From an uncultured Clostridia bacterium (lineage in GTDB: Bacteria > Bacillota > Clostridia > Oscillospirales > Ruminococcaceae): a DNA stretch of 50,228 nt. The notes under the pieces are model-generated. The model was not told the DNA's origin. It saw only the letters and a program-made list of their open reading frames with translations, and ran no database searches. Both the position numbers and the translations under genes were made by a program. Positions 2,653 through 20,294 of this stretch are shown piece after piece; the first letter of the stretch is position 1; the number at the start of each line of letters is the position of its first letter. The stretch covers positions 1-50,228 of the forward strand of contig CAMZIK010000006.1 in the NCBI GenBank assembly GCA_947307175.1, in the 5' to 3' direction.

Positions 2653-2686
2653 ATTATAGCACAGCTAAGATTAAGAAGTCTTTAAG
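2653..2686 (-). promoter_or_regulatory. Promoter with tandem CTTAA response-regulator-like box
   Basis: Reading the minus strand, CTTAA-N6-CTTAAT is followed after 11 bases by a TATAAT -10 box. No good -35 hexamer is present: the second repeat sits where a -35 would be, as is usual for activator-dependent promoters bound by OmpR/PhoB-type regulators. The layout matches 15339-15372 base for base in spacing. Which regulator binds is inference. Confidence 0.6.
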
Positions 2687-2716: not shown

Positions 2717-2749
2717 CCAAAAAGCCTCCCGTATTCTACAGGAGGCTTT
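2717..2749 (-). terminator. Rho-independent terminator of mscL
   Basis: On the minus strand AAGCCTCC, a 10-base loop and GGGAGGCTT are followed by TTTTGG, just downstream of the mscL stop codon. Confidence 0.75.
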
Positions 2750-2762
2750 GCTTTGTTATGTA

Positions 2763-3200
2763 TTATTCTTCTTTGTTTTCGAGCTTCTCAACAGCTTCGT
2801 CTGTCTTACCGTTAGCAAGCAGGTCTCTGATCTCTGTGAGCAGAACGATCTGCGGATCCGGCTCGTCAGGTTCTTCTTCCTTCTTCTTGCGGAACCGGTT
2901 GATAGTCTTTATCAACAGGAATACGCAGAAAGCTGTGAGCAGGAATGTTACGATAGCTTCAATGAACAGACCATACATGATCTGGGCGTCGCCGACCTTG
3001 ATGCTGAGTCCTTTGAAGTTGACCTGACCGAGAATAAGTCCCAGAAGTGGAGTGAAGATATCCTCAACGAGTGATTTAACGATAGCTGTAAAAGCACCGC
3101 CGATGATGATACCAACAGCCATATCCAGAACACTGCCTCTGGAAATGAACTCCTTGAACTCCTTAATAAAGCCCTTCTTTTCCTTCTTTTCGTCAGCCAT
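2763..3200 (-). CDS. mscL: Large-conductance mechanosensitive channel MscL
   Basis: A 145-residue MscL. The N-terminal amphipathic segment FIKEFKEFISRGSVLDMAVG leads directly into TM1 (GIIIGGAFTAIVKSLVEDIFTPLLG). A periplasmic-side loop and TM2 (IEAIVTFLLTAFCVFLLIKTIN) follow, then the charged cytoplasmic helix RFRKKKEEEPDEPDPQ. The protein forms a homopentameric pore that opens under membrane tension and releases solutes on hypo-osmotic shock. The longer ORF-track start at 3221 is rejected because GGGAGG lies eight bases before the ATG at 3200. Length is typical for the family. It is monocistronic with its own terminator. Confidence 0.95.
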   Translation of the reverse strand: MADEKKEKKGFIKEFKEFISRGSVLDMAVGIIIGGAFTAIVKSLVEDIFTPLLGLILGQVNFKGLSIKVGDAQIMYGLFIEAIVTFLLTAFCVFLLIKTINRFRKKKEEEPDEPDPQIVLLTEIRDLLANGKTDEAVEKLENKEE

Positions 3201-3314
3201 ATTTTTCGACCTCCCAAACATATAATTTTGTACCTATATTATACATTCTTCGACTTTGATTGTAAAGAGTGTTCACACAAATTTTACATTTTAAAATCCA
3301 CGCTGTTACAAAGA

Positions 3315-11631: not shown

Positions 11632-12107
11632 ATAAATCAGAATTTACCGCGGCGGCGGCGCGCTTGTCCGTCGCATATTCGTTTGTGGTGACAGCGACCT
11701 TTGTGCTGCTCCGGGCTTTCACTTTGTTAAGGTGTAGAGTTCTTGTTTTTGGGGGCTTTCCGGTCATGCCCCAAACCGTTCGCAAGCGAACGCTTTACCC
11801 CTTCGGGTGCAAATCTTTTCATAAGATTAGGAATGAACAAAACTGTCCGCCAAATGACTTCGTAGGTCGCAAGTGGCGTAGCAGCGAGCCCAGTCGAACT
11901 GCGTCTTGCAGCATTATGCCGCCTGCACAGGATATTGAGTTGGTGGCGGCAAAAGATAGGTGAAGGGAAAAGGGATACTAAGGGGAAAACCGTAGGGAAG
12001 AAAAGTCCGCGCACCTACGCCGTAAGGCAAGGCTTCCTTGTCTTCCCTATAGGTTTTCCCCTTAGAAAAATCAAAGCGGAGCTTTGCTCCGCTAAATTCT
12101 GATTTAT
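11632..12107. repeat. 476-bp non-coding element with 15-bp terminal inverted repeats
   Basis: ATAAATCAGAATTTA at 11632-11646 recurs as its exact reverse complement at 12093-12107. The interior has no convincing gene (listed ORFs lack ribosome binding sites and domain features). It is full of secondary structure: CGTTCGC/GCGAACG (11777-11792), ACCC-CTTC-GGGT, a long pair of arms at 11978-12001 and 12041-12065 (CTAAGGGGAAAACC...GGTTTTCCCCTTAG), and AGCGGAGC/GCTCCGCT next to the right end. A third copy of the 15-mer begins at 50138 with further shared modules. No target-site duplication is evident. It is MITE-like or a structured intergenic repeat; mobility is inference. The right terminal repeat overlaps the stop codon of the ABC permease gene. 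Confidence 0.7.
12063..12093 (-). terminator. Terminator-like hairpin of the ABC permease gene
   Basis: On the minus strand AGCGGAGC-AAA-GCTCCGCT is followed by TTGATTTTT, 10 bases after the permease stop codon. It is part of the repeat element, which thus appears to supply the terminator. Confidence 0.6.
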
Positions 12108-14524
12108 TCTACCACAAGTTCTCTTGTTTCTACTTTCTTTATCTTACGTGAAGCGATAAGAGCAAACACAAAGAATCCGACGATCAGCAGTGCCATAGGA
12201 ATGATTATATCAAGCGGTTTTGTTTCAAGGTCGAGGTAGCATATGCCTATCGCCCTGAGCAGCAGCTCCATCATTTTCTGTGTGCAAAGAGCTGAAAGAA
12301 CCACACCTATTATACCGCCGAGAAGTGCCACGAATGAAAATCTCATAGCAAACGAAAGCCTGAGCTTTGAAGATGTAAAGCCGACAGCCTTGTATATGCC
12401 GATGTCACGCCTTTCAAGAACAAATGCCTTTGTGCAGAGCAGCACCACAGCTATCAGCATGAATATGCCTGAGAAGCTGTAAATTATCCCTTTGAGCAGA
12501 TTTATCTCGCTTTCGTACATCTCATCGCCTTCGCTGTCGATGTCCCAGTAGCTGCACGAGCCTTTCTTTTCGCCCTTGTCATTTACAAGTGCCTTGTCTA
12601 TCTCGTCAGCTATCTGCTGAGCTTTGCTCTCGTCCTTGATAACGAAGCCTTCATAACCTATCCTGAAATCAGGATTAATTGTTTCAAATGCTTCGAAAGG
12701 TATCGCAAATACCATACCTGCATCGTTCGTGGACTGATAAATGCCCGAAACGATACATTCCAGCTCGCCCTTTCTGCCTGCGACAGTCACCTTGTCGCCT
12801 GTCTTCCAGCCGAACTCGTCGCTGACAAGCTGAGTGATGAGTATCTCGTTTTTCTGCCTTGGGTTTCTGCCCTTGATAACACCGCCGATGTATTCGGGAT
12901 ATTTGTATGCACGGCAGTATATCTTGTAGCCGTTTATAGAGCAGTAGCTGCCGTTGACAGCATATTTCTTTTCTACCGTGGTGTATTTTTCGATTATATC
13001 CACGGCAATCTTTTCAGCCTCATCTATGCTTAAAAGTTCTTCGCCTGCATAGTTGACGCTCATATCAAGCTGTGTTACCTCCATGCCCATCATTTCAAGG
13101 GCGTTGCGTGAGGTAACAAGACTTGCGATAAGATTTATCGACACCATGAAGAACATAAGCAGCGAGGAGATTATCAGCATACTGATGTAGCGGCGTTTTG
13201 CTGAGGTGAACTGTCTGATGCCGAGAGTGAGCGAGAGGAACTTTTTGCTCAATCCCATTTTCAGCCTGCTGTCAAAGTAGACCTCGTCCTTCTGTCCCGT
13301 GATAGCCTTTACAGGCGAGATCTTTGTGACCTTGTGAGTCTTGATGGTCATAACGAGCAGAGAAATGCCTATCAGTGCGATAATGATAATTATAGCTTTC
13401 AGAATGCTGACCCTGATCTCAACGGGAGTTCCTACGCTCTCAACGAACACATCAGCGATAACACCTGAAAGGAAGAACGCACCGATGATACCAAGTATAA
13501 CACCTATTATCATAGCCATGATATACTGCACTTCCATGATAAGCCTTATCTTGTGTGTGGTAAATCCCTGAGATTTGAGAATTCCGAGCTTTTTGCGGTC
13601 TATCTCTATCTCGCTTGAAATGCTGTGTCCCATAATGACCAGAGCTACCACGAACAGCATAATGATAAACGCAAGCACTATCTTTGAAAGTACATCGGAC
13701 AGCAGGGCAGAGTAGTTGACCGACTGCGCCTTTGTAAGAGTGCCTGCCGACAGGTCGTCCAGCTTTGTTGCGAGGTTCACATCTTTTTGGAACTGTGCGT
13801 CGCTGCCCTCATAGCTGTCTGCCTTGAATACATTGAACAGCTTGACCTCGATGCCTTCCTGAACAGCCTCGTCGTTTTTGTATTTCGGGTCTGCTTTTGT
13901 TTCTGCGGATATTTTTGAAAGCTCGTCAAAGTCCTCGTCGGAAATGAATACCTGCTTCCAGCCTATCTGCGATGAGCCGTTCTGCGGTTCCTGAACAAAA
14001 CCCTTTATCGTAAACTCATACTTTGCATAATAAAAGCAAGTCTCAAGCGTGTCTCCGACCTTGCAGTTCAGCCTTTCCTTACAGCCCAGAGGCAGATATA
14101 CTTCACCCTTTTCAAGTGCGGGAGTATTATCTTCAAGACCTGTAACATCGGAGTTTATCAGCCTGATGCCGTCGTGCAGCTTCATATAGAAATAGCTGTT
14201 GCCGTCGTTGGAATTGCCGACTCTGTTTGATGTATTGTTGTTGTACCAGTTTTCGAGCGCATCATAAACATCGAGCTTTTTGACGATGTCAAGGCTGCTC
14301 ACCTTGTCTTCAAGCTCAGGCTTGTAATAATTGATGGAAACAAGGCAGACTTCGGTAGGATCGCCTAAGTCTTTGAAGGAATCCTCAAGCGCCTTGTCCT
14401 TGCTGTCGAGAAAGTTGAAGATAGACAGCGACGACGAAATGATTATCGCCGTAAGCAGCATAACTGCGATGAATGCGCCTTTGCGCCTTTTGATGTTAGC
14501 CTTTACAAGTGTGAATATCTCCAT
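12104..14524 (-). CDS. ABC transporter permease, FtsX/MacB-like (two FtsX domains)
   Basis: An 806-residue membrane protein. It has an N-terminal TM (AFIAVMLLTAIIISSSLSIF), a large extracellular domain (~45-270), three TMs of a first FtsX unit (~285-395: AFIIMLFVVALVIMGHSIS; IMAMIIGVILGIIGAFF; AIIIIIALIGISLLVM), another TM (~430-465) opening the second half, a second extracellular domain, and a C-terminal FtsX triple-TM unit (~690-795). Such proteins work as mechanotransmitters or exporters for peptides and lipoproteins with a MacB/LolD-type ATPase, encoded 9 bp upstream. Together with the adjoining two-component system this resembles antimicrobial-peptide or envelope-stress modules; the substrate is unknown. 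Its stop codon lies inside the terminal repeat of the neighbouring element. Confidence 0.88.
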   Translation of the reverse strand: MEIFTLVKANIKRRKGAFIAVMLLTAIIISSSLSIFNFLDSKDKALEDSFKDLGDPTEVCLVSINYYKPELEDKVSSLDIVKKLDVYDALENWYNNNTSNRVGNSNDGNSYFYMKLHDGIRLINSDVTGLEDNTPALEKGEVYLPLGCKERLNCKVGDTLETCFYYAKYEFTIKGFVQEPQNGSSQIGWKQVFISDEDFDELSKISAETKADPKYKNDEAVQEGIEVKLFNVFKADSYEGSDAQFQKDVNLATKLDDLSAGTLTKAQSVNYSALLSDVLSKIVLAFIIMLFVVALVIMGHSISSEIEIDRKKLGILKSQGFTTHKIRLIMEVQYIMAMIIGVILGIIGAFFLSGVIADVFVESVGTPVEIRVSILKAIIIIIALIGISLLVMTIKTHKVTKISPVKAITGQKDEVYFDSRLKMGLSKKFLSLTLGIRQFTSAKRRYISMLIISSLLMFFMVSINLIASLVTSRNALEMMGMEVTQLDMSVNYAGEELLSIDEAEKIAVDIIEKYTTVEKKYAVNGSYCSINGYKIYCRAYKYPEYIGGVIKGRNPRQKNEILITQLVSDEFGWKTGDKVTVAGRKGELECIVSGIYQSTNDAGMVFAIPFEAFETINPDFRIGYEGFVIKDESKAQQIADEIDKALVNDKGEKKGSCSYWDIDSEGDEMYESEINLLKGIIYSFSGIFMLIAVVLLCTKAFVLERRDIGIYKAVGFTSSKLRLSFAMRFSFVALLGGIIGVVLSALCTQKMMELLLRAIGICYLDLETKPLDIIIPMALLIVGFFVFALIASRKIKKVETRELVVE

Positions 14525-15338: not shown

Positions 15339-15372
15339 ATCATACAGAAAAAGTTATTAAGAAATCCTTAAG
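15339..15372 (-). promoter_or_regulatory. Response-regulator box and promoter of the ABC transporter genes
   Basis: On the minus strand CTTAA-N6-CTTAAT (11-bp period) followed after 11 bases by TATGAT; the distal repeat overlaps the kinase stop codon. The -35 is non-consensus, suggesting activation. Likely ligand is the adjoining OmpR-type regulator (16513-17199). Spacing is identical to that in front of the MBL-fold gene at 2.6 kb. Confidence 0.7.
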
Positions 15373-16516
15373 ATACCTGGGAAGGATTTTTTTCTTTCAG
15401 CGTCACCGTTACCTCAAGCCCGTTCCCCGTATTTCTCAGTAAAAGCTCTGCACCCATCTTGCTGCAAAGATACTTTACTATATACAGTCCCAGACCGCTT
15501 CCCGCAGCGCCTTTGTGACCCCTGTAAAACTTTTCAGTGACAAAAGCCATATCTTCGTCAGGGATTCCGCCGCCGTGGTCGGTGAATCTTACCGCAAGAG
15601 TCCTGTCCTTGTACTCTGCGGCAACATCAATATCAGTCTTTGCATATTTTCTTGCATTGGTTATGATGTTTTCAACTATCTGCTTTAGCCTGTCAGGGTC
15701 AGCAACAGTGATAAACTTCTTGTCAGGCTTTTCAAAATGTATCTCATTTCCCTGCGGATCAAGTTCGTCTATCGTTTCTTCGAGCAGTCTGCAGACCTCT
15801 GTGTCAACAGCCTTTATGTCCAGCATTTCAAGGTCGGACAGCGAGTGTATGAACAGGTCGTTTGTAAGCTTTGAGACCTCGTCGCACTTGCGCATGATAA
15901 CGTCAAGATACCTGTGTCTCTTTTCGGGGGAGTTGTCAAGGTAAGCATCAAGACCCTCTGCATAAGCACGTATAGATGCAACAGGAGTCTTTATGTCGTG
16001 GGAGAGCGTAGCGATGACCGTCTTGTTGTTTTCCACCGCCTGCTTTTCGCCTGCCCGTGCAGAGATTATCTCACGGCGCATACTGTCAAAAGCCCATGTG
16101 AACTTTCCGAAATAGTTCTTGCGCTCATATTGAAGCGGTATGTCAAAGTTTCCCGCTGCCAGCTCTCCCGCATATTTTTCAAGCTTAGCGAACGGGCGCA
16201 GTACCGCAAAATATGTGTATAAAGCATTCAGGAAAATGAACGTCGCAGCGATAAGGCATATCCATACTATGCTGTAATTCGCTTTTGTTTTGACATCAAG
16301 AGTGCGCAGCTGTTCCTCAAGGTCTGTGAGCAGTTCGTCAGCTTTCTGCGTGTCGCCCTGACGTATAACAGTCTGTATCTCATTGACCGAAACGATCTGA
16401 TCGTTTCGTGCCTCATCAAGATTAGTCTTGGAATTTATCATGTAAAACAATACTCCTGCCAGCGCGATCAGGATCGAGAACACAAGCGCCTGCGTAAAAA
16501 GTTTAGTCTTCATCAC
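15368..16516 (-). CDS. Sensor histidine kinase
   Basis: A 382-residue membrane kinase. TM1 (~6-28) and TM2 (~82-106) enclose an extracellular loop of only ~55 residues. A HAMP-like segment follows (PFAKLEKYAGELAAGNFDIP), then HisKA with the H-box ATLSHDIKTPVASI and HATPase_c with N-box NIITNARKYAK, G1 DHGGGIP and G2 GAAGSGLGLYIV. It autophosphorylates on the H-box His and passes the phosphate to the regulator encoded just upstream; the two genes overlap by ATGA. It probably senses an envelope signal, possibly together with the FtsX transporter. Confidence 0.93.
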   Translation of the reverse strand: MMKTKLFTQALVFSILIALAGVLFYMINSKTNLDEARNDQIVSVNEIQTVIRQGDTQKADELLTDLEEQLRTLDVKTKANYSIVWICLIAATFIFLNALYTYFAVLRPFAKLEKYAGELAAGNFDIPLQYERKNYFGKFTWAFDSMRREIISARAGEKQAVENNKTVIATLSHDIKTPVASIRAYAEGLDAYLDNSPEKRHRYLDVIMRKCDEVSKLTNDLFIHSLSDLEMLDIKAVDTEVCRLLEETIDELDPQGNEIHFEKPDKKFITVADPDRLKQIVENIITNARKYAKTDIDVAAEYKDRTLAVRFTDHGGGIPDEDMAFVTEKFYRGHKGAAGSGLGLYIVKYLCSKMGAELLLRNTGNGLEVTVTLKEKNPSQVS

Positions 16517-17199
16517 TTATCCTCCAGAATGTATCCTACTCCCCATACTGTCTTTATAAAACGGGGCTTCGCAGGTTCGCTTTCCAGCTTTTCTCTCAGC
16601 CAGCGGATATGTACCGTCAGTGTTGACGGCTCAACCATAGAAAACGCACCCCAGACTTCATTTATCAGCTTGTCCTTGGCGATCGCCTCATTTTTATGCT
16701 CGCAAAGATATGCAAGCAGATCAAATTCTTTCAGCGAAAGGTTTACCGCCTTGCCGTCACGTGTGACCGTCCTTGCAGTGATATTTACCGTAATGTTTCC
16801 GAAGCTGACTGTCTTTTCCTTGTCCGTGCTGCCGTATGTGCGCCTTATCAGCGCATTTATCCTTGAAAGCAGTTCCTTCATCGAATAAGGCTTTGGAAGA
16901 TAATCGTCGCCGCCTATGTCAAATCCGGTTATCCTGTCTGTCTCGCTGGTGCGTGCGCTTGCAAATATCACAGGAACATTTGAGACCTCTCTCAGCTGCC
17001 TGCAGACTTCAAAACCCGATGAATCGGGAAGATTGATGTCAAGCAGTATCAGATCAAAGCTGCTTTCCGACAGTATATCAAAGCCCTTTTCGCTGCTCTC
17101 TGCGCTTTTCACCTCAAAGCCTTTGCTTTCGAGCATATCGGTGATTATCATCGAAAGGTCACTATCATCATCTATTATCAGTATTTTTCTGTTTGCCAT
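16513..17199 (-). CDS. OmpR-family response regulator
   Basis: A 228-residue regulator: receiver domain (~1-115) with acidic pair DDDSD, phospho-acceptor Asp in LILLDINLPDSSG, Thr/Ser in IFASARTS and Lys in YLPKPYS. The winged-helix DNA-binding domain follows (~128-225: LSLKEFDLLAYLCEHKNEAI, then VHIRWLREKLE). The ORF-track start at 17265 adds a hydrophobic extension unlike this family; ATG 17199 has GGGGGAA upstream and is preferred. It likely binds the CTTAA repeats in front of the ABC genes. First gene of the operon; its own promoter is not obvious. Confidence 0.93.
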   Translation of the reverse strand: MANRKILIIDDDSDLSMIITDMLESKGFEVKSAESSEKGFDILSESSFDLILLDINLPDSSGFEVCRQLREVSNVPVIFASARTSETDRITGFDIGGDDYLPKPYSMKELLSRINALIRRTYGSTDKEKTVSFGNITVNITARTVTRDGKAVNLSLKEFDLLAYLCEHKNEAIAKDKLINEVWGAFSMVEPSTLTVHIRWLREKLESEPAKPRFIKTVWGVGYILEDK

Positions 17200-17459: not shown

Positions 17460-19049
17460 TCATTTTTTGTTCTGGTCAAATATCTCCATCGCTTCGTTAT
17501 AGGCATCAATAGCTTTTGCTGCGTTTTCGTCCTCAACGGTCTTATCGTTGTCGCCTCTTGAGCGAAGCATAACGAACCTGCCGTCAACGACCGCATAGAG
17601 TGTTTCCTGTCCGTAGTCATACATCCTGTTCACCGTTGTGACCTTGGCATTGGGGTCAATTTTAGCGGCGTATTCAAGTCCTTCAGTGAGCTTGTCCGTA
17701 TCCGCTTTCTTCTTTTCGGGAGAGGCTGTCTGAGAATGTATGCCTATCTGCTCTGTGAGCCAGTCGGAAAACTCCCTTCTGCCGCTTCCTTCTATTGCAG
17801 AGAAATCAAAATGATACAGATCGCCTTTCTTGCTGACGTAACTGCCTTGGATATAAGTTCCCTCGGCGTAGTTCGTGCGGACATAGATAAATGCGATGTC
17901 ATTTGCTGTGAGCTTCTTTGAGCTGTCAGGAGTGTTCTTGCCGAAGTATTCTTCTTTCACTAAGTTTTTCGGCGTGCATATCTCTTTTTGGATAAGCTCG
18001 TCAAGCTTCTGCTTTTCATTTATGTCATTGTCAAGGTAATATGTCTTGCCGTCAGGAGTTTTCAGCACCAGAATGCTTTTTCCGCCCTGAAGCTGCGGTG
18101 CATCTGCAAGAATGCCTTCAGCAAGCGTATACTCTCCGCCTTCGCTGTTTTTCGCCGTGATGAACGGTGTGCCGCCGCCCTGAACTACCTGTGCGCCCTG
18201 GAGAGTTATCTCTTTTTGCCCGACGATCCTGCAAAGCTTCTCAAAAAGCTCCTTTCTGATATTGAAATCTTCTGCCGAGCCTTCATAGTAGTATCTTCTT
18301 TCAGCTTGCTCATCTGTCTTCTGAGCCTTTGCGCTGAATTCATAGCTTGTGATCCTGTAATTGCAAAAGTCGTCCTTCGTCGTCGGAGCAGGACTTATCT
18401 TGTCGCCGCCTGATTCACCGACGATGTTCTCCTGACGCATAACGCCCTTTTTGAGAAGCACCTCAAATTCCTGCTGGAGCTGATAGCCTGGCTGGAGGAT
18501 ATGCCACGAATTCGGTCCTTTCAGAACATAAACGTTTGCACCGCCGTCGTTGTCTCCGCTGACGAGCAAGCCGTCAGATACGGTGTATTTTGAGTAGAAA
18601 TCGTCTTTTCCGTCCTTTTTCAGCGTAAGGATAGCGCTCCCTCCGCCCTGAACGTCCTGATCGTCCTTTAACTGCACTTCGCTGTTCTTTATCAGCTCAC
18701 AAAGCATCTCATAGACACGCTTTTTGGTGCTTTCATCAATTATCTCACCGTTATATGTTGTGTGTACCTTTGTTTCTGTATCGTAGTCCTGCGCTTTTGC
18801 GAAAAACTTGAAATCTGTGTATTTCAGCAGTTCTGTCATTTCCTGCGCATCGGTCATCTCAAATGAGACAGGTACATGTTCAACAGTGCTGCTTGGGTCT
18901 GCGTTGCTGCTTGGATCTGAATTGCTGGTGTCAGGCTTCTGTGAGGCTGCTGAAATACTCGTACCTGCGCTGTTTTGTGAACTGTCCGAGCAGCCTGCCA
19001 TTGAAAGCACAAGGACTGCTGCAAATATTAAAGCTGCAATTCTTTTCAT
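17460..19049 (-). CDS. Predicted lipoprotein, two-module paralogue
   Basis: A 529-residue lipoprotein: signal MKRIAALIFAAVLVLS and lipobox MAGC, then a Ser/Asp/Pro linker. Two copies of a ~130-residue module follow, recognised by VQGGGSAILTLKKDGKDDF...LLVSG and VQGGGTPFITAKNSEGGEYT...ILADA. Each module starts with a stretch like TDFKFFAKAQDYDTET or YEFSAKAQKTDEQAE. The C-terminal third (IAFIYVRTNYAEGTY...YAVVDGRFVMLRSRGD) is shared with the neighbouring gene. No known domain is recognised; an extracellular binding or signalling role is possible. It lies 21 bp downstream of its paralogue, so the pair is one operon. AAGGAG precedes the ATG. Confidence 0.75.
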   Translation of the reverse strand: MKRIAALIFAAVLVLSMAGCSDSSQNSAGTSISAASQKPDTSNSDPSSNADPSSTVEHVPVSFEMTDAQEMTELLKYTDFKFFAKAQDYDTETKVHTTYNGEIIDESTKKRVYEMLCELIKNSEVQLKDDQDVQGGGSAILTLKKDGKDDFYSKYTVSDGLLVSGDNDGGANVYVLKGPNSWHILQPGYQLQQEFEVLLKKGVMRQENIVGESGGDKISPAPTTKDDFCNYRITSYEFSAKAQKTDEQAERRYYYEGSAEDFNIRKELFEKLCRIVGQKEITLQGAQVVQGGGTPFITAKNSEGGEYTLAEGILADAPQLQGGKSILVLKTPDGKTYYLDNDINEKQKLDELIQKEICTPKNLVKEEYFGKNTPDSSKKLTANDIAFIYVRTNYAEGTYIQGSYVSKKGDLYHFDFSAIEGSGRREFSDWLTEQIGIHSQTASPEKKKADTDKLTEGLEYAAKIDPNAKVTTVNRMYDYGQETLYAVVDGRFVMLRSRGDNDKTVEDENAAKAIDAYNEAMEIFDQNKK

Positions 19050-19070: not shown

Positions 19071-20294
19071 TCATTCTCCTGCTTCGGGCGCTACGGCGCT
19101 TGACATCAGGGATTCGTAGTATTCTATCGCCTTTTGTGCGTTGTCGTCATGTACGGTCTTATCCACATCGCCTTTTGACTGAAGCATTATCGGTTTGCCG
19201 TCAACGACAGCGTAGATCGTGTTCTGACCGTAATCACACATCTTGTGTTCTTCGGTGATCTCGGCGTCAGGGTCTACCTTTGAGGCGTAGGACAAAGCCT
19301 CTCTGAGCTTGTTGGTGTCCATTGTTTTTCCTTTTACTTCCACGCCGACTTTGTTGATATAATCGAGCACCAGCTGTTCAAAAGAAGTACTATTCTTTCT
19401 TTCCAACTTGAAATTTGTGCTTGAAAAATCAAAGCTGTACACGTTTCCAGCGGTGTCGATGCAACTGCCGTGCAGGCTGAATCCCCATGCGTAGTTGGAA
19501 CGTACGGACATAAAAGCTATCGGGTTTTCGGGCTTGACAAGCTGCTTTTTGTCGGGAGTGTCTCTGTCCTGCGGCATAACGGTCTTTACAAGGTTCTCCA
19601 TGGTCATAACGCCGTTTTGTAAAAGACATTCCAGAGTTCGTTTGTCCCCTATATCAGGACGGAAATAGTAGTATCTTGACTGAGGAGCTTTTAAAATATA
19701 TACCTCTTCGCCGCCTTCTTCCATCGGGTCCTGAACGAGCAAGCCTTTGCAGAGCTTGTACTCTCTTGAATCCTTGGTCTTCAAGGTGAGTATCACACTT
19801 GCGCCGCCCTGAACAGCCTGTTTGCCTTTTAGCGTCAGCTCGCTTTCCTTCAGTATCTTGCAAAAGGTCTTAAAGATGTAGTTCTTAGTCGAATCTTCGG
19901 TTATCTCGCCCTCGAAGTATCTGCGTATCTGCGTTGCGTTGTCGTAATCCTCAGCCTTTGAGAAAAAGCTTAGATCGGTATATTGCTGTTTGATAAGGTC
20001 TTCGATCTCTGTGGTCGCAGGTGTCAGCTTGTCGTCCTTGCTGCTGTCAGGATCTTTAGCGCTTGAGTCTTTTCCACTGTCAGAGTCTTTTCCGCTGCTT
20101 GGATCATCTTTGCCGCTGTCAGGATCACGTCTGTCGGTCAATATCCAGCGGCTGCTTGGGTCTGCATAGCTGCTGTCAGGTTTCTGCGGGACGGTTGAAA
20201 TATCATTTCCTGCTGTTCCTTCTGCGTTTTCCGAGCAGCCTGCCATTGAAAGCACTAAAGCTGCCGCAAGTATAAGAGCTGCGATTTTTTTCAT
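19071..20294 (-). CDS. Predicted lipoprotein, one-module paralogue
   Basis: A 407-residue lipoprotein with signal MKKIAALILAAALVLS and lipobox MAGC. A low-complexity Asp/Ser/Lys linker (DSGKDDPSSGKDSDSGKD) follows, then one copy of the module that occurs twice in the next gene (LSFFSKAEDYDNATQ; VQGGASVILTLKTKDSREY). It ends with the same C-terminal domain (FMSVRSNYAWGFSL; YAVVDGKPIMLQSKGDVDKT). Function unknown. AAAGGAG lies before the ATG. It is the first gene of the pair; its promoter should lie in the 394-bp gap shared with the GntR operon. Confidence 0.75.
   Translation of the reverse strand: MKKIAALILAAALVLSMAGCSENAEGTAGNDISTVPQKPDSSYADPSSRWILTDRRDPDSGKDDPSSGKDSDSGKDSSAKDPDSSKDDKLTPATTEIEDLIKQQYTDLSFFSKAEDYDNATQIRRYFEGEITEDSTKNYIFKTFCKILKESELTLKGKQAVQGGASVILTLKTKDSREYKLCKGLLVQDPMEEGGEEVYILKAPQSRYYYFRPDIGDKRTLECLLQNGVMTMENLVKTVMPQDRDTPDKKQLVKPENPIAFMSVRSNYAWGFSLHGSCIDTAGNVYSFDFSSTNFKLERKNSTSFEQLVLDYINKVGVEVKGKTMDTNKLREALSYASKVDPDAEITEEHKMCDYGQNTIYAVVDGKPIMLQSKGDVDKTVHDDNAQKAIEYYESLMSSAVAPEAGE

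Follow-up and report, generated by a model that had tools for sequence, protein, structure and literature searches.

Within the window (the whole 50,228-nucleotide stretch of DNA that was analysed), the promoters of an MBL-fold metallo-hydrolase gene and of an FtsX-type ABC transporter operon carry the same regulator box at the same distance from the -10 element. On balance we regard the two promoters as probable members of one small OmpR-type regulon that is split over duplicated two-component systems, in which regulator A, encoded in the window beside the transporter, would serve ABC operons, and its paralogue, regulator B, would serve the MBL gene and a family-2 glycosyltransferase gene. 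Under this reading, an uncharacterised hydrolase would come under the other regulator, and a knock-out of its obvious neighbour would probably miss the hydrolase. The pattern of the box, its spacing and its variable base yield a rule that can be applied genome-wide to an uncharacterised regulon of an important group of rumen bacteria. The features on which the analysis is based are collected in Table 1.

Table 1. Promoter elements and genes of the window discussed in the text
Feature	Position	Strand	Basis
Predicted A6-type regulator box of the MBL promoter, CTTAAAGACTTCTTAAT	2670..2686	-	Exact match; position 6 is base 2681; box conserved at this site in G017, G006 and G004
-10 element TATAAT with extended -10 TGTGC, 11 bp past the box	2653..2658	-	Sequence; TAnnnT equally spaced in orthologues
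MBL-fold metallo-hydrolase gene, 240 aa	1886..2608	-	Pfam Lactamase_B, 1.8e-21; HAHADHDW metal motif intact
Terminator-like hairpin separating mscL from the MBL promoter	2719..2750	-	Direct reading, AAAGCCTCC...GGAGGCTTTTT; hairpin retained in relatives
mscL, upstream neighbour of the MBL gene	2763..3221	-	Pfam MscL, 2.3e-41
Predicted G6-type regulator box of the ABC promoter, CTTAAGGATTTCTTAAT	15356..15372	-	Exact match; position 6 is base 15367; conserved in the kinase/ABC gap
-10 element TATGAT, 11 bp past the box	15339..15344	-	Sequence; TAnnnT retained, spacing equal in orthologues
ABC transporter ATPase, LolD/MacB-like, 253 aa	14534..15295	-	Pfam ABC_tran, 2.5e-33
FtsX-type permease, 806 aa, two FtsX stretches	12104..14524	-	Pfam FtsX, 2.2e-18
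Histidine kinase A, HisKA and HATPase_c	15368..16516	-	Pfam; orthologues in the genus
OmpR-type response regulator A	16513..17199	-	Pfam Response_reg, 3.2e-28, and Trans_reg_C, 2.3e-25; helix from alignment

Two promoters with the same box and spacing

Both 34-mers of the original prediction, which had proposed that the same box and spacing recur at two distant promoters, are found letter for letter on the minus strand of the window (2686 to 2653 and 15372 to 15339). When the 3.59-Mb assembly was scanned with the exact pattern CTTAA-N6-CTTAAT-N11-TATRAT, these were the two matches obtained, both inside the window. An order-3 Markov model of the window gives an expectation of ~0.0009 exact matches genome-wide, and this would rise to ~0.03 if the whole genome were 70% AT. 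When up to three mismatches are allowed within the window, two sites are found and 0.44 are expected, an unremarkable number that leaves room for a chance likeness between AT-rich promoters. This window count alone would not convince; the conservation does. Against the exact-match expectation, the conservation described below, which refutes the chance explanation, and the 40:0 outcome of the reversed control, the probability of mere likeness is negligible.

No TTGACA-like hexamer is present 17 bp upstream of the -10 element at either promoter (the hexamers there, AGACTT and GGATTT, have 0/6 identities each), which bears out the proposed lack of a -35 box. The MBL promoter has an extended -10 element (TGTGC-TATAAT) and the ABC promoter is without one, and the start codons of the MBL and ABC ATPase genes lie 44 and 43 nt past the -10 element, respectively. 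The hairpin at 2719-2750 separates the MBL gene from mscL, so the MBL gene needs a promoter of its own. At the ABC promoter, the first CTTAA shares bases with the kinase stop codon, as it does in most genomes. In G009, the box and the kinase stop codon are separate and the box is intact and unchanged, so the conservation of the box cannot be put down to the reading frame. The closest solved structure to the MBL protein by sequence is ST1585 (3adr), and the score of the ABC ATPase does not reach the LolD equivalog cut-off. The pairing of ABC/FtsX exporters with a two-component system, as in other modules of this kind, hints at envelope or antimicrobial-peptide stress as the signal.

Conservation of the box and its co-occurrence with the two-component system

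Close MBL orthologues were found in 7 of the 61 genomes searched, all within the genus. Four of these seven (the source genome, G017, G006 and G004) carry the box in the same place with 11 bp to the -10 element, and in the alignment of the four promoters 14/17 box columns and 4/6 columns of the -10 element are invariant, compared with 8/40 columns just upstream. The MBL genes of G009, G010 and G011 have neither the box nor a promoter gap, and none of the distant MBL homologues that were checked (41-50% identity, including that of R. flavefaciens) has the box. Its absence from these three genomes and from the homologues at or below 50% identity indicates that the MBL link is recent and clade-limited. 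Between the kinase and ABC genes, the ABC box is retained in every one of the eight close orthologous kinase neighbourhoods, and a box in the kinase/ABC gap with the 11-bp distance to the -10 element also occurs in many further Ruminococcaceae genera.

A broader pattern, YTTAANGANYTCTTAAT-N11-TANNNT, which accepts any base at position 6, was derived from the box sites. It has 40 matches in 29 genomes of the genus and 0 when reversed. Equal frequency of the pattern in controls had been named as one result that would refute the prediction, and this comparison did not refute it. Among genomes in which the kinase is present (at least 43% identity over most of its length), 17/19 contain at least one match, and among kinase-free genomes the count is 0/10 (hypergeometric chance ~3e-6, with the genomes treated as unrelated). 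An ORF starts 8-200 nt downstream of 70 of the 71 distinct sites that could be assessed, mostly at 20-80 nt, against a loose background of 53%. From the conservation, the 40:0 ratio against the reversed control and the absence of matches in the 10 system-free genomes, we infer that the element is an OmpR-type box with a CiaR/SaeR-like layout, through which transcription would be activated.

In the source genome, such sites lie ahead of the system A ABC genes, of an orphan ABC/FtsX operon (contig C2), of the family-2 glycosyltransferase gene (C84) and of the MBL gene. Two further sites with two mismatches (C1:79201 and C20:2835) were left uncounted, because the reversed control is equally frequent at that stringency.

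Regulators A and B and the predicted mode of binding

Regulator A combines a receiver domain with a winged-helix Trans_reg_C domain, as is characteristic of the OmpR/PhoB group, and its recognition helix, EPSTLTVHIRWLREKLE, has Thr at the specificity position. The source genome contains 18 Trans_reg_C matches, and one of these proteins, regulator B (contig C244), is a paralogue of regulator A with 66% identity. Its recognition helix, EPSTLAVHIRWLREKLE, has Ala at the specificity position, and the helices of the two regulators differ at one to two residues. In the source assembly, kinase B runs into the contig end. In relatives, the order of system B is regulator, kinase, box, ABC ATPase and FtsX permease; no B-type permease was found in the source assembly, which may reflect an assembly gap. 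An AraC-type gene lies upstream of pair B (G000:C244:1-3858), and the same gene is located ahead of system B in relatives.

The layout of the sites fits the head-to-tail dimer that OmpR/PhoB proteins form on direct repeats ~11 bp apart, and binding of this type is predicted here. A phosphorylated regulator dimer would occupy the two TTAA half-sites head to tail at their 11-bp period, where the missing -35 box would otherwise lie, and the bound dimer would then recruit RNA polymerase to the -10 element that starts 11 bp past the box (class II-type activation).

No autoregulation site for regulator A was found upstream of 17199 at three or fewer mismatches. Upstream of regulator A, two adjacent lipoprotein-like genes on the minus strand (17460-19049 and 19071-20294) encode similar N-terminal signal sequences, and neither Pfam nor NCBIfam gave a match for the product of the first.

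A helix residue concordant with position 6 of the box

The promoter of each regulator's own system was located with a score blind to position 6, and orthologues were added from the family. For the 49 regulators with a located promoter, Thr in the helix goes with G (34) or T (6) at position 6 in 40/40 cases and Ala goes with A in 9/9, with no exception. In a regulator tree built without the helix column, the helix and the box change three times each, and all changes are concordant. One example is the B-lineage regulator of G332, which has Thr and a G6 box, next to its relative in G373 with Ala and an A6 box. Part of the concordance could stem from common descent. A sign test on independent pairs, of which there are two to three, all concordant, was not significant, the pairs being too few to reach significance.

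Remote sites, which lie away from the regulator genes, are a better test of the rule. They carry A6 where the regulators found were of the Ala type only (G122 and G410) and T6 where they were of the Thr type only (G244, G388 and G020). In genomes with both regulators, the base is A at 4/4 MBL sites and 5/5 glycosyltransferase sites and G at 7/7 orphan FtsX sites. The TTAA cores are nearly invariant across the boxes. The set thus forms a natural regulator/box series in which one protein residue goes with one DNA base. In G332 (C98) and G122 (C106), regulator/kinase pairs of the Ala type occur with neither an ABC operon nor a box next to them. G122 retains a single remote A6 box, which shares a contig with its Ala-type pair, and a search for an A6 box in G332 gave no match.

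The variable helix residue aligns with D196 of PhoB, R193 of KdpE and E215 of Mycobacterium tuberculosis PhoP. The R193A substitution in KdpE leads to loss of DNA binding, and D196 of PhoB is reported not to touch DNA (PMC3264566). In M. tuberculosis PhoP, where a 7-bp half-site goes with a 4-bp spacer, the bases contacted by E215 lie close to the 3' end of the half-site (PMC4832192). If CTTAAGG is laid on the PhoP motif TCACAGC, in a register that is itself inferred, the bases contacted by E215 would correspond to positions 6 and 7 of the box.

Probable assignment of the promoters to the regulators

The original prediction held that the regulator at 16513-17199 activates both promoters. Its first half, a tie between the box and regulator/kinase A, stands on the family-wide position of the box in the kinase/ABC gap and on its absence from genus genomes without the system. 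The extension to the MBL gene is not supported in that form, as the MBL box carries the base of the paralogue, A6, in 4/4 genomes. Under the position-6 rule, G6 of the ABC box (base 15367) assigns the ABC promoter to regulator A, and A6 of the MBL box (base 2681) assigns the MBL promoter, most likely, to regulator B. Regulator A (Thr) would thus read G6 and T6 boxes and turn on the neighbouring ABC/FtsX operon and probably the orphan ABC/FtsX operon on C2, and regulator B (Ala) would read A6 boxes and turn on the family-2 glycosyltransferase (C84) and, as its main regulator, the MBL hydrolase. For the MBL sites, the likelihood ratios are only 3.7-4.9 bits and come mainly from one position.

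Activation of both promoters by regulator A alone would be in keeping with the near identity of the boxes and their equal spacing. It is also mildly favoured by the location of the MBL gene and system A on one contig, ~7-22 kb apart, in the source genome, in three of the relatives that carry the gene and likewise in G009. A6, found in 4/4 MBL boxes, is never the base at the 40 promoters that belong to the Thr regulators' own systems, and we consider control by regulator A alone improbable. Slightly less improbable, but still unlikely, is an arrangement in which both paralogues bind both boxes with differing affinities, so that the promoters integrate two signals. The recognition helices are separated by one to two residues and the boxes by one key base around nearly invariant TTAA cores, and some measure of cross-binding is likely at sites that differ at one base. 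Against a shared use of the boxes, base 6 perfectly partitions the target classes in two-regulator genomes, which suggests selection for discrimination.

Reading of one or both boxes by a third regulator is very improbable. The candidate is the regulator of a third regulator-kinase pair, on C33, which has a similar helix (QQTLTVHIKWLREKIE) and lies ~5 kb from a related box, TTTAAGGATTATTTAAT, that precedes its own adjoining ABC/FtsX genes. This box differs at positions 11 and 12, and the box of the window tracks systems A and B across genomes. The C33 locus (G000:C33:17000-24831) comprises an HU-like small ORF, the FtsX permease, the ABC ATPase, an XRE-like regulator, the OmpR-type regulator and the kinase, with TTTAAGGATTATTTAAT upstream.

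For the preferred division between regulators A and B, we put forward a history to which we give an even chance. A two-component/ABC module would have been duplicated in rumen Ruminococcus and relatives, and one Thr-to-Ala change in the helix together with a matching G/T-to-A change at a single box base would have insulated the regulators. The regulon would then have been dealt out, with the ABC genes going to A and the glycosyltransferase and MBL genes to B; the switch would have occurred on more than one occasion, with at least one probable reversal (G332). The system makes the insulation of duplicated OmpR-type regulators directly testable, using short fragments of DNA and a pair of point mutations.

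Comparison with known systems

The CiaR box of streptococci is NTTAAG-N5-TTTAAG, with the -10 element searched for at 10 bp (PMC3091779). Common features are an OmpR-type regulator, a TTAA direct repeat with an 11-bp period that replaces the -35 box, and a fixed distance to the -10 element. However, CiaR requires each TTAA to be followed by G, whereas the second half here ends in T in all 49 boxes, nearly all of which read TTAAT, and one base more separates the last TTAA from the -10 element here. The recognition helix is VVEVYVSKVRKKL in CiaR, compared with STLTVHIRWLREKL in regulator A and STLAVHIRWLREKL in regulator B. The complementary strand of the box reads NTTAAG-N5-NTTAAG, as in CiaR, but points away from the -10 element. 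Membership of the CiaR regulon was rejected because the second half-site, the -10 distance and the recognition helix all differ.

The SaeR box of Staphylococcus aureus, GTTAAN6GTTAA, in which G is reported not to be strictly required (PMC5083920), is likewise a TTAA direct repeat with an 11-bp period. In the boxes described here, C or T takes the place of G before TTAA, so GTTAAN6GTTAA is not matched and membership of the SaeR regulon was rejected; there is no shared neighbourhood, and the SaeR regulon consists of virulence genes, unlike the regulon described here. VanR-type sites were considered as a parallel and set aside, as they differ from the box. The 11-bp period is also that of the tandem dimer of M. 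tuberculosis PhoP on direct repeats, with a 7-bp half-site and a 4-bp spacer (PMC4832192), although the motif differs (TCACAGC there and CTTAAGG here, in the putative register of comparison).

In the BceRSAB-type antibiotic-sensing modules of Firmicutes, the genes for the regulator, kinase, ABC ATPase and FtsX-type permease are adjacent and the ABC genes are under the control of the regulator (PMC3023708). The same four genes adjoin here, and the ABC genes are putatively under the regulator. The BceRSAB kinase is an intramembrane sensor with a very short extracytoplasmic loop, which the layout of kinase A seems not to fit: direct reading of its translation indicates two apparent transmembrane segments ~55 residues apart, with an apparent extracytoplasmic loop between them. 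The BceRSAB permease has 10 transmembrane helices and one large extracytoplasmic loop; the permease here is an 806-aa protein with two FtsX stretches. Among open-licence papers, we found none on this regulon, whether under Ruminococcus two-component direct repeats or under CTTAAG together with regulators and ABC transporters.

Further boxes in the source genome and the genus

A weaker box with C at position 6 is located at G000:C124:8457-8490, 97 nt before the start of an ABC ATPase gene at the contig end, and its base fits neither the rule for regulator A nor that for regulator B. In G388 (C150) and G244 (C18), T6 boxes precede genes for homologous proteins of 197-205 aa (MKNEVDYQ...EYER.A.ADAREAELH...). 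A protein resembling this family is encoded upstream of the C124 box in the source genome (L101:3224-3961).
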